Positions 4,424 to 9,544 of a DNA stretch of 64,000 nt are shown here, piece by piece. The position numbers and the translations under genes were made by a program. Position 1 is the stretch's first letter, and each line of letters opens with the position of its first letter. The notes below the pieces were generated by a model, which made no database searches, was not told the DNA's origin, and saw only the letters and a program-made list of their open reading frames with translations. Source of the stretch: Alphaproteobacteria bacterium (GTDB lineage: Bacteria; Pseudomonadota; Alphaproteobacteria; Micavibrionales; Micavibrionaceae); the NCBI GenBank assembly GCA_030432025.1, contig JAUIIA010000001.1:1-64000 (forward strand), in the 5' to 3' direction.

Positions 4424-4448
4424 AAGCCTGCTTTAGTCAGGCTTTTTT
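4424..4448. terminator. bidirectional terminator between greA and the Lrp gene
   Basis: AAGCCTG (4424-4430), CTTTAGT, CAGGCTT (4438-4444), a T-run on the right and an A-run on the left (4416-4422). It serves both convergent genes; the stop codon of the Lrp-type gene overlaps the T-run. Confidence 0.75.
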
Positions 4449-4920
4449 ATTGTTCGATCGGAACGCCAGGCTCGTCCTTTGCGCTGCGAATGCCCAAAGA
4501 TGATTTTACGGAAACCACATTTGGAGCGCTTGTCAGCTCATCTTTCAAAAACTCCTGATAACTGTCCCAATCTTTTGCAACAATTTTCAGAATAAAGTCG
4601 ACTTCTCCGGCTAACATATGACATTCACGCACCATAGGAAGTGAAGTCATGTGTTTTTCGAATACCTCGAGGTCCTTTTCGGCCTGTGATTCGAGGCGAA
4701 CCATGGCAAAAACAGTCACACTGAACCCTAAAATAGAGGGATCAATCTGTGCATGATAGCTTTTAATATAGCCGGCTTCTTCCAAAGCACGAACGCGTCT
4801 TAAACACGGAGGAGCAGAGATACCAACAACTTTCGCCAATTCAACATTGGTCATGCGACCATCCTGTTGCAGGTTCTGAAGAATCTTTTTATCAATTTTA
4901 TCGAGCTTTGAGCGTCGCAT
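4447..4920 (-). CDS. Lrp/AsnC-family transcriptional regulator
   Basis: A 157-residue feast/famine regulator. The N-terminal winged helix-turn-helix (about residues 5-60) contains the family signature LDKIDKKILQNLQQDGRMTN and the recognition helix around SAPPCLRRVRALEEAGYI. The C-terminal RAM ligand-binding domain (about 70-145) contains VRECHMLAGEVDFILKI. It is divergent from the ELM1-family gene across 92 bp, so that gene is a possible target. The effector, probably an amino acid, cannot be read from sequence. Confidence 0.9.
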   Translation of the reverse strand: MRRSKLDKIDKKILQNLQQDGRMTNVELAKVVGISAPPCLRRVRALEEAGYIKSYHAQIDPSILGFSVTVFAMVRLESQAEKDLEVFEKHMTSLPMVRECHMLAGEVDFILKIVAKDWDSYQEFLKDELTSAPNVVSVKSSLGIRSAKDEPGVPIEQ

Positions 4921-5012: not shown

Positions 5013-5957
5013 ATGCGAAAAAAAATAAATTGCTGGATTGTCACCGAAGGAATAGCCGGCACTGAAAACCAGTGCCTTGGTGTTGCGGAAGCACTTGGCA
5101 TCGATGCCCAGGTGCATCGTGTTGCCCTGAAACAACCATGGAAAAGCCTGTCTCCCTATCTGGGATTTGAATGTGCCAGCACCTTCGAACCACAGTTTGA
5201 GGAACCATGGCCTGACCTTTTGATTGCCTCAGGTCGTAAAAGCATCGCGGCGGCGCGGTACATAAAAAAAGCGAGTGGCGGCAAGACATTTACCGTTCAG
5301 ATTCAGGACCCGCGCATATCACCCGCAAACTTTGATTTAGTCGCCGTCCCCGAGCATGACCCAACGCGCGGCGATAACGTGCTGGTAACCAAGGCTGCAC
5401 CCAACAGGATTACAGATGAAAAACTTGAAAATGCGCGTGAGCAATTTGCCGCATTCGAGAAGATAAAAGCGCCGCGTGTTGCCGTGCTTATCGGTGGAAC
5501 AAGTAAAGATTACACGCTGACCGCCAACATCACTAAAAAATTGATTCTACGCCTGCAGCATTTGGATGCCGGTTTGATGATTACTGCATCGCGTCGTACA
5601 GGCGTTGAGAATGAGGAAATGTTGAAAGCGGCCTTTGAGGATACCGATCATTACATTTGGGGCGGTGTCGCCGATAATCCGTATTTCGGCTTACTGGCGT
5701 GGGCTGATTTTATCCTTGTGACGGCGGATAGTGCGTCGATGATTTCCGAAGCTTGTACAACCGGAAAACCGGTTTATATGATTGGTATGGATAAAAACCA
5801 CCCTGAAAAGGCAGGTCGTATTGACAAGCTGCACCAAACACTTAAAAAATCAGGGTGTTTAAGAGATTTTGAAGGTGAATTGGCGTACTGGAAATATGAA
5901 CGTCTGAATGACTCACAAATGGTCGCAGATGAAATAACAAAGCGCATGAAATTATAG
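5013..5957 (+). CDS. ELM1-family (DUF1022) protein
   Basis: A 314-residue protein matching the bacterial 'mitochondrial fission ELM1' family: N-terminal WIVTEGIAGTENQCLGVAEALG, a central VAVLIGGTSKDYTLT glycosyltransferase-B-like nucleotide motif, and C-terminal TADSASMISEACTTGKPVY. The fold resembles GT-B enzymes and the bacterial role is unknown. The start at 5013 has no clear Shine-Dalgarno sequence. It ends 7 bases before trxB, so the two are probably co-transcribed. Confidence 0.8.
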   Translation: MRKKINCWIVTEGIAGTENQCLGVAEALGIDAQVHRVALKQPWKSLSPYLGFECASTFEPQFEEPWPDLLIASGRKSIAAARYIKKASGGKTFTVQIQDPRISPANFDLVAVPEHDPTRGDNVLVTKAAPNRITDEKLENAREQFAAFEKIKAPRVAVLIGGTSKDYTLTANITKKLILRLQHLDAGLMITASRRTGVENEEMLKAAFEDTDHYIWGGVADNPYFGLLAWADFILVTADSASMISEACTTGKPVYMIGMDKNHPEKAGRIDKLHQTLKKSGCLRDFEGELAYWKYERLNDSQMVADEITKRMKL

Positions 5958-5964
5958 GTAGATT

Positions 5965-6942
5965 ATGAGTACAGACATCAAGCATAGCAAAGTTTTAATC
6001 ATCGGCTCCGGCCCTGCGGGATATACGGCCGCGATCTACGCCGCGCGCGCAAATCTGAAGCCTATGCTTGTTGCTGGTTTCGAACCCGGTGGTCAGTTGA
6101 TGATCACTACGGAAGTTGAAAATTACCCCGGATTTGCCGAGCAGATTGAAGGCCCATGGTTGATGGAACAAATGAAGGGCCAAGCCGAAAATGTCGGCAC
6201 CGAAATCATCAGTGACTACATCAAGGAAGTTGACCTTTCCCAGCGTCCGTTCAAGGCGATTGGTGATCAAGGACAAGTCTATACAGGTGACACTCTGATT
6301 ATCTCCACCGGTGCGAAGGCGCGATGGCTCGGCTTAGAGAGCGAAAAGAAATTTCAAGGCAAAGGCGTTTCGGCCTGTGCCACATGTGACGGTTTCTTCT
6401 TCCGCGGCAAAGACGTGGTGGTTGTCGGCGGTGGTAACTCCGCCGTTGAGGAAGCCCTCTTCCTGACCAATTTCTGTTCCAAGGTCACTGTGGTTCACCG
6501 CCGTGATTCATTGCGCGCTGAAAAAATTATGCAGGACCGTTTGTTCGCCAGCGATAAGGTTGAAATGGTTTGGGATAGCGTTGTCGAAGAAGTTGTCGGC
6601 GATGATAGCGGCGTTACGGGCGTACGCATAAAAAATGTAAAGACGGACGAAGAACGCACAATTGATGCACATGGCATGTTTGTTGCCATCGGTCATGACC
6701 CGGCGACCGAACTGTTCAAAGGGCAGTTGGAGATGGACGATACCGGATATTTGATTACGGCACCTGATTCCACAGCAACCAGTATACCGGGTGTATATGG
6801 TGCGGGTGACGTTTCCGACCATACATACCGTCAGGCCGTTACAGCGGCAGGTATGGGCTGTATGGCGGCTTTGGAAGCAGATCGGTTTTTAGCCACACAA
6901 GCAGACGGTAACGAAGACACAACGGCGCAGGCGGCTGAATAA
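5965..6942 (+). CDS. trxB: thioredoxin-disulfide reductase
   Basis: FAD flavoenzyme that passes electrons from NADPH to thioredoxin in the cytoplasm. It has 325 residues. The FAD motif GSGPAG is at residues 14-19, the redox-active CATC at Cys138/Cys141, the NADPH motif GGGNSA near 155-160, and the C-terminal FAD motif [10 protein letters not shown]. It lies in the order ELM1, trxB, lysR with 24 bp to the LysR gene. In rhizobia trxB also neighbours lsrB, and this synteny supports the identification of the next gene. Confidence 0.97.
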
Positions 6943-6966: not shown

Positions 6967-7857
6967 ATGGATTGGGACAAGCTTAGAATTTTTCATACCG
7001 TAGCGAGGGCATCCAGCTTTACCGAAGCGGGAGAGATGCTCAATCTCAGTCAGTCCGCAGTTTCACGACAGATCAGCACGCTCGAAGAAAGCCTGGGCAT
7101 GGAGTTATTCCATCGTCATGCACGCGGTTTGATTCTAACCGAGCAAGGCGAAATTCTGCGTTCAGCAACCAATGAAATTGCCAACAAGTTACAAACTATT
7201 CAGGGCAAACTGGCCGACACACGGCAATCTTCCGAAGGCCCTTTAATTGTTACAGTTTCGGACTTTCTGGGTACAACATGGCTGGCCCCGAGGCTCTCGG
7301 GCTTTCGTGATATCCACCCTGAAATCCAGCTTACCCTGCTGTTTGATGAGCGCGTTTTGAACATCAGCATGCGCGAGGCGGATGCCGCCATACGATTGCA
7401 TGAGCCCCGCCAAGGCGACTTGGTTGCACGCAAGCTTACCTCGATTAATTTTCATATTTGTGCATCCAAAGCCTATATCGCAAAGTACGGTGCACCGAAG
7501 TCCGTAGATGATTTGAAGAATCATTGCCTGATCGCCTACCCGCCCGGTTCTTATTCCCCAATTCAAGAACCCGGATGGCTGCTCAACCTCGCCGGAATCG
7601 ATACCGAAAGCAATAACAATGTCTTACTGATGAATTCTATGTACGCCATCCACAAGGCCGTTCAGACCGATGTCGGTATAGCCGTGCTACCGAATTACAT
7701 GATCAATATACGTGACAATCTGGAGATTTTATTAGCCGATTATCAACGTCCGCCCGTGGATATGTACTTTGTATATGCAGAGGAACGGCGCAATTCGAAA
7801 AGAATTCAGATCTTTCGTGATTTTTTATTGAAGAGCGTAAACACCACCCCATTCTAG
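6967..7857 (+). CDS. lsrB: LysR-family regulator, LsrB/VtlR type
   Basis: A 296-residue LysR-type regulator. The helix-turn-helix spans about residues 15-60 (SFTEAGEMLNLSQSAVSRQI), followed by a periplasmic-binding-like effector domain with two Cys residues (HICASK and NHCLIAY). The order trxB, this gene, AbcR-like RNA matches rhizobial trxB-lsrB-abcR loci, where the LysR protein (VtlR in Brucella, LsrB in Sinorhizobium) controls AbcR RNAs and envelope or redox functions. A T-N11-A dyad lies upstream of the RNA gene just after this stop codon, a plausible target. LsrB orthology is inferred from synteny and length. Confidence 0.85.
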   Translation: MDWDKLRIFHTVARASSFTEAGEMLNLSQSAVSRQISTLEESLGMELFHRHARGLILTEQGEILRSATNEIANKLQTIQGKLADTRQSSEGPLIVTVSDFLGTTWLAPRLSGFRDIHPEIQLTLLFDERVLNISMREADAAIRLHEPRQGDLVARKLTSINFHICASKAYIAKYGAPKSVDDLKNHCLIAYPPGSYSPIQEPGWLLNLAGIDTESNNNVLLMNSMYAIHKAVQTDVGIAVLPNYMINIRDNLEILLADYQRPPVDMYFVYAEERRNSKRIQIFRDFLLKSVNTTPF

Positions 7858-7923
7858 AAGATTACACTAATATTCTTGTATTATTATGTACTTATGCGTG
7901 TTTAAACATTAAATCAACCTAGC

Positions 7924-7940
7924 TATGCATAAATTGCATA
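7924..7940 (+). promoter_or_regulatory. LysR-type operator (T-N11-A dyad) for the AbcR-like RNA
   Basis: TATGCA (7924-7929), five bases, TGCATA (7935-7940): a perfect 6-bp inverted repeat with a nested T-N11-A (T7926, A7938). Its centre (7932) lies about 64 bases before the likely RNA start near 7996, where activating LysR proteins usually bind. Confidence 0.5.
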
Positions 7941-7983
7941 ACTGATACTTAAAATTAGCCCTTTCATTTATTTTTTAGTGCGG

Positions 7984-7990
7984 TTATACA
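7984..7990 (+). promoter_or_regulatory. -10 element of the AbcR-like RNA
   Basis: TTATACA at 7984-7990 matches a sigma-70 -10 box, 6 bases before the first predicted hairpin region. No good -35 is visible, as expected for a LysR-activated promoter. Confidence 0.45.
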
Positions 7991-7995
7991 TTTCC

Positions 7996-8111
7996 GTTAA
8001 TGGCTTCTTGCCATTGAGGGTCCTTTTGGATCCTACGTCTCCCAGACGTGAAACCTCCCTGTTCAACTCGCCGGGCCAGTTGCATTTTGTGACATAGGCC
8101 CGGTTTTTTTT
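7996..8111 (+). ncRNA. abcR: AbcR-like (alpha-r15 family) trans-acting small RNA
   Basis: A roughly 116-base structured RNA with no open frame. Hairpins are: AATGGC/GCCATT (7999-8015), GGGTCC/GGATCC (8018-8033, one G-U pair), ACGTCT/AGACGT (8035-8049) and a terminator CCGGGCC/GGCCCGG (8071-8103) followed by eight T (8104-8111). Two CTCCC anti-Shine-Dalgarno motifs sit at 8039-8043 (hairpin loop) and 8055-8059 (single-stranded). AbcR RNAs of Rhizobiales use such CUCCC motifs with Hfq to repress ABC-transporter mRNAs and lie beside the lsrB/vtlR gene, as here. The 5' end is estimated from the -10 box. Confidence 0.75.
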
Positions 8112-8191
8112 ATGTTATAATATTAGATATTGTTAATGAGCCTTCAGCCGTTCAGGCTGCAGCATAAGCTCTTCTCAAAAGGACACACTTC

Positions 8192-9418
8192 GTGCCTAAG
8201 AAAAAAACAGTCGTAGTTCTCTTTACTTATGGCGGCGGTATGCGCGGCGTTATTCCTGCGCGCATCATGTCGCGTATAGAAGAGCAGACAGGTTTACGCA
8301 TGGCGCAGATGGTCGACGTATTTGCAGGCCCCTCGACCGGTACGATTCTGAATACCGCATTGAATATTCCCGATCCTAAAAACCCGAGCATGCCGAGATT
8401 TAAAGCTGCGCATCTTGTGCGATTTTATGAGCAGGAGGGAATCAAAATTTTCCCGCAAGACCGGTTCAGGGATTTTCGTGCATTTGTGCATGACTTCAAC
8501 AACCGCACCATGAAAATCGGGCAACTTAAATCCCTCTTCCGTCATGGGCACTACGACCCGGGGTACCTTTCCAAATGCCTTTATGATCTGTACGGCGAGC
8601 ACAAGCTGGAAGATTCGCTCAAGAGCCTGATTATCCCTGTCTACAATATCGACAGCCGTCAGTTCGAACCATTACAAGAGCAAGGCGATACTATGGACAC
8701 GCCGGTCCACACGACCAACAATTTTGTTGATGGCGGCGGACACGCCGTGTGGTTCAAAAACATGAAACACGGGCGCAATCAATCCTCTTACGACGTGCAA
8801 CTTCACGATGCCGTTTTGGCGAGTTGTGCTGCACCTACATACTTCCCTTGCCAGCATTTTGCCGCCACCCCGCCCGGGCAAAAACACCCGAAACATTACT
8901 CGGGTATAGACGGCAGCATTTTTGACAATCCCTGCATCAGCTATCACGGCGCAATCCGTCAGCATCTGGATGCAGACACGAATGTGGTGATGATTATTCT
9001 GGGAACAGGCTACACGCTACAATCAATCCGCAAAGACGAATGGAACAGCTATGGCGGCTTGGGTGTCGTTGACCCCGTGAATGACCTGCCGTTGATCAGC
9101 ATCCTGTTCCACGCATCAGAATCTGCACTGGTCGGCAGCTTCAAGGAAGAGCTGGGCGACAACATCTATGTCTTTAATAAATCGATCGCAGGCGCCGACG
9201 AGGTCACAGACAACGATCAGGTCCCGTCAAAGGCGATTGACGATGCCAGCCCGCAAAATCTGGCCAGCATGCATAATTTTGCTGAAAAAATTATCGAAGA
9301 AAACCAGCAGCAATTTGACCGTCTGTGCACCTTTTTGAAGAATCATGCTCAAGATATTGATTCCAAAAATGAAAAAGTGAGTTTCTTTGAAAAGACGAAA
9401 CGCTTTTTCGGATCATAA
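8192..9418 (+). CDS. patatin-like phospholipase family protein
   Basis: A 408-residue patatin-fold hydrolase. The oxyanion loop GGGMRG is at residues 14-19, the nucleophile elbow GPSTG has Ser48, and the second catalytic residue is Asp240 in IDGSIFDNP (usually DGG or DGA). SCAAPTYFP near 211-219 is also typical. It has no signal peptide, so it is probably cytoplasmic and acts on phospholipid or acylglycerol. It starts at GTG 8192 after AAAAGGA. A C-terminal tail beyond residue 300 is not recognised. No nucleotidyltransferase is nearby, so a CBASS role is not supported. Confidence 0.85.
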   Translation: MPKKKTVVVLFTYGGGMRGVIPARIMSRIEEQTGLRMAQMVDVFAGPSTGTILNTALNIPDPKNPSMPRFKAAHLVRFYEQEGIKIFPQDRFRDFRAFVHDFNNRTMKIGQLKSLFRHGHYDPGYLSKCLYDLYGEHKLEDSLKSLIIPVYNIDSRQFEPLQEQGDTMDTPVHTTNNFVDGGGHAVWFKNMKHGRNQSSYDVQLHDAVLASCAAPTYFPCQHFAATPPGQKHPKHYSGIDGSIFDNPCISYHGAIRQHLDADTNVVMIILGTGYTLQSIRKDEWNSYGGLGVVDPVNDLPLISILFHASESALVGSFKEELGDNIYVFNKSIAGADEVTDNDQVPSKAIDDASPQNLASMHNFAEKIIEENQQQFDRLCTFLKNHAQDIDSKNEKVSFFEKTKRFFGS

Positions 9419-9544
9419 AAAATTCAAACACCTCTGTTTTTTCCACCGTAGCCACGGCGGTGCAGCATAAAATATTCGAGCGTTTTTTATTCCCCTTCGC
9501 TAATATGCCAGCAAGAACAATAAGAAACAGCACAGGGGCAAGCT

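Follow-up and report, generated by a model that had tools for sequence, protein, structure and literature searches.

The window, by which we mean the whole 64,000-nucleotide stretch of DNA analysed, comes from an alphaproteobacterium of the Micavibrio group and contains a thioredoxin-disulfide reductase gene (trxB), a gene for a LysR-type regulator and, directly downstream of the latter and on the same strand, a predicted small RNA (Table 1). An initial annotation had placed here, directly 3' of a trxB-LysR pair and in a lineage distant from the Rhizobiales, an RNA with several hairpins, a strong intrinsic terminator and two CUCCC motifs, and these points were all borne out. The predicted fold of the RNA (-47.3 kcal/mol, z = -5.6) was equalled in stability by none of 200 shuffled sequences and comprises four hairpins, among them a GC-rich terminator with a stem at 8070-8104 followed by the U8 tail. 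One CUCCC lies in the loop region of hairpin 3, where CCC alone is unpaired in the minimum free energy fold, and the other lies in the open stretch AAACCUCCCUGUUCAAC.

Table 1. Features at and around the small RNA locus of the window
Feature	Position	Strand	Basis or remark
Lrp/AsnC-type regulator gene	4447..4920	-	
Mitochondrial-fission ELM1-like protein gene	5013..5957	+	
trxB, thioredoxin-disulfide reductase	5965..6942	+	TIGR01292, 423 bits (cut-off 343)
lysR, LsrB/VtlR ortholog, LysR-type regulator adjoining trxB	6967..7857	+	sequence comparison
LysR box, palindrome ATGCATAAATTGCAT (ATGC-N7-GCAT, T-N11-A inside)	7925..7939	.	centre about 64 bp 5' of the predicted RNA start
GCAT-N3-TG	7936..7944		overlaps the palindrome
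Predicted -10 element TATACA, without a good -35	7985..7990	+	sequence; -10-like element at the same place in relatives
Small RNA, about 116 nt, predicted 5' end	7996..8111	+	sequence, fold, covariance model
Hairpin 1, sequence variable among relatives	7997..8017	+	fold, relatives
Hairpin 2, sequence variable among relatives	8018..8033	+	fold, relatives
Hairpin 3, UACGUCUCCCAGACGUG	8034..8050	+	fold, pair covariation
CUCCC in the loop region of hairpin 3	8039..8043	+	sequence
Single-stranded seed region AAACCUCCCUGUUCAACUC, 19 nt, most conserved part	8051..8069	+	fold, relatives
Core of the seed region, CCUCCCUGUU	8054..8063	+	fold, relatives
CUCCC in the open stretch	8055..8059	+	sequence
Intrinsic terminator and U8 tail (typical Hfq-binding 3' end)	8070..8111	+	sequence, fold
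Patatin-like phospholipase gene	8192..9418	+	PF01734

A covariance model, R1, was built from 7 other genomes with the window sequence excluded; its E-values are rough, owing to a short calibration. In the 64 kb of the window, R1 matched the RNA with 82.9 bits (E 1.3e-21) and nothing else below E 2. Matches at E ≤ 1 were obtained in 186 of 315 good Alphaproteobacteria genomes, and most of the 186 are clear, since the matches listed for the class extend to an E-value of only about 5e-9; within the order to which the window belongs, 103 of 142 genomes gave a match. A BLAST search with 171 bases found matches in 34 of the 37 genomes searched, the strong ones being centred on ACGUCUCCCAGACGUGAAACCUCCCUGUUCAACUCGCCGGG, and the matches listed from a pattern scan of named genomes include Azospirillum, Thalassospira, Magnetovibrio, Roseomonas, Reyranella, Kiloniella, Nisaea, Caedibacter, Micavibrio and others. 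The covariation test used 94 distinct aligned rows. Fitting the alignment to the model gives the structure an advantage, but the gap between the observed score (0.466) and those of shuffles (0.120) and slid structures (at most 0.067) is very large. In these rows, standard pairs occupy 98.1% of the pair cells, double-sided changes occur at 11 of the 12 base pairs, and the terminator stem is 99.3% paired with covariation; the 5 modelled pairs of hairpin 3 have all changed on both sides among relatives (96.4% paired). By these comparisons, the presence of a conserved structured RNA at 7996-8111 is confirmed, far beyond chance. The pattern of conservation already contradicts the view that the RNA is merely the terminator of lysR or the leader of the patatin-like gene, between which it lies, and we regard this view as highly improbable: about 17 unpaired nucleotides hardly vary across the class, copies of the RNA exist without lysR upstream or without a patatin gene downstream, and the patatin gene lies beyond the U8 terminator.

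The two CUCCC motifs differ in their conservation. Several divergent members of the family have lost the motif in the loop of hairpin 3 while keeping the stem by compensatory changes, and these members retain the open stretch, whose seed is nearly invariant and which is mostly unpaired (mean unpaired probability of 0.74 over 154 RNAs). Because the loop motif can be lost and the open stretch is kept, the latter is probably the main working part of the RNA; the idea that both motifs are equally essential was dropped on account of the relatives that lack the loop motif. The RNA is absent from the RNA database Rfam and apparently also from the open-licence literature searched, and it is not printed in the main text of a survey of small RNAs in Azospirillum brasilense (PMC7685610).

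The genes surrounding the RNA are conserved as well. The LysR protein of the window is 41% identical over its full length to the Sinorhizobium meliloti LysR protein encoded between trxB and AbcR1, with a nearly identical recognition helix, and most of the class carries its ortholog in a single copy. At 130 of 165 usable unique RNA loci, the LysR ortholog lies within 700 bp upstream and on the same strand, and at many of the RNA loci trxB lies 5' of it. In S. meliloti Ak57 and Rhizobium leguminosarum the order is likewise trxB-LysR, followed by AbcR1 and AbcR2, so that the claimed synteny of trxB, lsrB and a small RNA is indeed common to these species and the window. A gene of the Lrp/AsnC type stands upstream of trxB in all three, and the conserved block is therefore longer than trxB-lsrB; in the window, the ELM1-like gene is also found 5' of trxB. 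Immediately 3' of the RNA, many relatives have at the same place a patatin-like gene whose product is 51-85% identical to that of the window, and in Micavibrio sp. UBA7657 this family-specific gene (58.5% identity) also stands beside the RNA; the assignment of the host to the Micavibrio group is based on this sharing of genes with a named Micavibrio contig. The product of the window gene scores 102 bits with the model of the CBASS cGAMP-activated phospholipase, which is below the cut-off of 200. Sequence comparison showed that the cysteines of S. meliloti LsrB are not conserved in the LysR protein of the window; the redox signal is therefore not transferable to it, and a redox role through these cysteines was dropped.

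The region upstream of the RNA contains a candidate binding site for this regulator. Among the 130 LysR-linked loci, an exact ATGC-N7-GCAT palindrome is present upstream of the RNA in 97, where dinucleotide shuffles would give 1.3, and a palindrome with no more than one mismatch in its 8 letters is present in 121, where shuffles would give 16.8. The same palindrome ranked first among gapped word pairs when none had been chosen beforehand (97 loci). In the window, the T-N11-A inside it lies at activator distance, and the palindrome is conserved together with LysR. The published LsrB/VtlR box is GCAT-N3-TG-N3-T (PMC7486931, PMC8844928), and the GCAT-N3-TG of the window lies 60-52 bp 5' of the predicted start, with a C in place of the last T of the published box. 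In S. meliloti, the box is located at -61 to -49, its truncation reduces the activity of the AbcR1 promoter more than 22-fold, and binding of LsrB was shown by gel shift (PMC8844928). In both S. meliloti and R. leguminosarum, the palindrome is also found about 65 bp 5' of AbcR1, and the LsrB/VtlR box that the AbcR1 promoter has near -61 to -49 is conserved in the window.

Activation by LysR is best supported by the joint loss of the site and the factor. In the order of the window, the palindrome is present at 63 of 79 RNA loci from genomes that have a LysR ortholog and at 0 of 12 loci from genomes without one (Fisher p 1e-7), the remaining 16 of the 79 having no recognisable palindrome. For some of the 79, the ortholog was identified at the RNA locus and not by a genome search. 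Conversely, TTGAC is found at -35 in 5 of the 12 LysR-less copies versus 1 of the 79 LysR-bearing ones (p 1e-4). It should be noted that the order-level p-values are optimistic, given that related genomes are not independent, but the genomes without LysR are spread over several genera and families. At three loci (L248, L254 and L255), the palindrome is kept while the LysR gene has been relocated in the genome. From these comparisons we infer, with good support, that LysR activates the RNA. Among the LysR-less relatives, the RNA has been kept at loci L018 and L020 (genomes G024 and G029) without an adjacent trxB-lysR pair and without LysR in the genome.

The same region bears on the question of how the RNA is made. 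It could be derived from the lysR transcript, as SorX is released from the 3' UTR of its mRNA by RNase E, instead of from a promoter of its own; it lies on the lysR strand, 140 bp past the lysR stop codon and without a terminator in between, and SorX provides the precedent (PMC9438474, PMC6238624). We consider this origin unlikely, as a -10 element is located just 5' of hairpin 1 in the window and its relatives, the LysR box is spaced as is classical for an activator, and in genomes that have lost lysR the RNA persists and tends to be preceded by a -35 element.

The RNA had been proposed to extend the AbcR family, and this stands in part. The ar15 model (RF02345), with which the initial annotation had suggested to check its proposal, gave no match at E ≤ 10 in positions 7000-9500 and none at the gathering score (40 bits) in the window, whereas true AbcR1 and AbcR2 score 107-127 bits with it; over 142 and 385 genomes of the class, it gave sub-threshold matches only, one of which is a suhB RNA. 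R1, in turn, did not match AbcR1 or AbcR2 at E ≤ 10. By sequence, then, the RNA is not a member of ar15, and it falls instead into its own class-wide family; what matches AbcR is the position, the box and the presence of two anti-Shine-Dalgarno motifs. Both AbcR1/AbcR2 and the RNA of the window have the trxB-LsrB-RNA order, a palindrome at about -65, a terminator and two anti-Shine-Dalgarno motifs, the first in a loop and the second unpaired, although some relatives of the window RNA lack the loop motif. They differ in the open motif, which is GUUCCCCUCU in AbcR versus CCUCCCUGUU in the window, and in an extra hairpin that AbcR carries between the second anti-Shine-Dalgarno stretch and the terminator.

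The nearest Rfam family by sequence is SorX (RF02784), below threshold: its model matches the window RNA from end to end and over the full model length with 26 bits (E 0.002; gathering score 46.6), and SorY (RF02651) gave no match in the same search. In Paracoccus, Octadecabacter and Pseudorhodobacter, three Rhodobacterales, the LysR ortholog is followed, as in the window, by an RNA that scores 49-54 bits with the SorX model, above its gathering score; trxB is not annotated beside the ortholog in the two of these records that are annotated. R1 matches these RNAs weakly (E 1e-5 to 1e-4), and each of the two models hence finds members of the other family. SorX/SorY and the window RNA share a hairpin followed by the single-stranded stretch CCUCCCUGUU and a terminator, but the window RNA has two more hairpins, the loop CUCCC and a predicted promoter of its own that includes a LysR box, whereas SorX of Rhodobacter sphaeroides is cut from the 3' end of an mRNA (PMC9438474). 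A further group of similar build, alpha-r8 (suhB/MmgR/SisA-D), also has a weak hairpin, an open UUUCCUCCCU stretch, a terminator and an Hfq-dependent anti-Shine-Dalgarno seed (PMC12559287). Its seed differs after CUCCCU, however, and most alpha-r8 RNAs adjoin an N-formylglutamate amidohydrolase gene in place of trxB-lsrB (PMC12559287); the corresponding model (RF00519; gathering score 41 bits) had no match in the window at E ≤ 10. What can safely be stated from these comparisons is that the RNA belongs to a separate, LsrB-linked family with an anti-Shine-Dalgarno motif that is spread over much of the Alphaproteobacteria, a positional and regulatory counterpart of AbcR that is closest in sequence to SorX/SorY.

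Taken as a whole, the best explanation, which we consider likely, is that the locus encodes a LysR-activated, Hfq-type small RNA of its own class-wide family that masks Shine-Dalgarno sequences. LysR, the ortholog of LsrB/VtlR, and the trans-acting RNA directly 3' of its gene would constitute a two-gene regulatory module in which the former switches on the latter. A LysR dimer would bind ATGC-N7-GCAT and recruit RNA polymerase to a promoter with a -10 element but a poor -35, the U-tail of the terminator would load Hfq, and the open stretch, aided by the neighbouring loop CUCCC, would pair with target mRNAs at the Shine-Dalgarno region and lower their translation. In function and position, the RNA would then correspond to AbcR1 of rhizobia and to the SorX/SorY-type RNAs of Rhodobacterales. 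The features expected of an Hfq-dependent trans-acting RNA were found, as the host genome (G000) encodes Hfq (106 bits) and the RNA ends in a stem and the U8 tail. We infer the masking of Shine-Dalgarno sequences because CCUCCCUGUU is open and complementary to a strong Shine-Dalgarno region, and because similar seeds of AbcR1/2 (PMC8844928) and SisA (PMC12559287) repress by pairing at or near the ribosome-binding site and SorX represses potA (PMC9438474).

Candidate targets were sought by a scan for perfect 9-nt seed complements in 1.9 Mb of the host genome, in which gene starts were set by a simple script and the output is a prediction only. Complements were found in the start regions of 9 ATG genes versus 1.75 in shuffled regions, but other purine-rich, Shine-Dalgarno-like control seeds reach a count of 9 in 9-14% of draws. 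A gene taken to be prkA and the DUF444 gene that follows it each have a complement 5' of the start codon (G000:C7:65031-70422, outside the window); the row presumably consists of prkA, DUF444-like and SpoVR-like genes. This prkA is the sole recurring prediction, its site being conserved only in the nearest relative. The silencing of ABC-transporter mRNAs, suggested initially by analogy with AbcR, is unsupported in the host: unlike the targets of AbcR, the genes with a seed complement in the scanned 1.9 Mb include no ABC-transporter group by sequence prediction.

The RNA may also be a true ortholog of AbcR that has diverged beyond recognition by ar15, one ancestral LsrB-controlled RNA having become AbcR in the Rhizobiales, SorX/SorY in the Rhodobacterales and the present RNA elsewhere; we find this about evenly balanced between right and wrong. 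It is consistent with the shared place 3' of trxB-LsrB in S. meliloti, R. leguminosarum and the window, with the SorX/SorY-family RNAs behind an LsrB ortholog without an adjoining trxB in the three Rhodobacterales, with the same LysR box at the same distance in the window and the AbcR1 loci, and with the reciprocal matches of R1 and the SorX model. The failure of R1 and ar15 to match each other's RNAs and the extra hairpin of AbcR argue against it, and the small RNA gene at the locus could have been replaced. Equally poised, in our judgement, is the broader proposal that a single LsrB-activated small RNA gene at trxB-lsrB gave rise to AbcR, to SorX/SorY and to the RNA found in Rhodospirillales-type lineages and Micavibrionales, its seed being kept or swapped while its transcriptional input stayed unchanged. 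If true, this regulator and its RNA would be among the oldest known pairs of this kind, predating the orders of the Alphaproteobacteria. Among the open-licence papers searched, none contains both AbcR1 and SorX, and none of those listed in a wider search joins AbcR with SorX/SorY. A strongly conserved class-wide family, absent from Rfam, would join three so far separate lines of research, on AbcR of symbionts and pathogens, on SorX/SorY of photo-oxidative stress and on the unstudied Rhodospirillales, and makes it testable whether trxB-lsrB-sRNA is an ancestral circuit. The LysR-less relatives offer a natural experiment on how the promoter of a small RNA changes once its activator is lost, and cultivable hosts exist, as Azospirillum, Thalassospira and Magnetovibrio carry the RNA.

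Several small genomes (G271, G280, G319, G275 and G041) contain multiple LysR orthologs, some of them together with several copies of the RNA. G271 has 5 LysR genes and 7 RNA matches and G280 has 6 and 4, respectively, which suggests that regulator and RNA multiplied jointly in such genomes. At another locus (L222, G077:C3:145300-148900), several CUCCC-bearing hairpins and two SorY-like RNAs in tandem are found 3' of a LysR gene.
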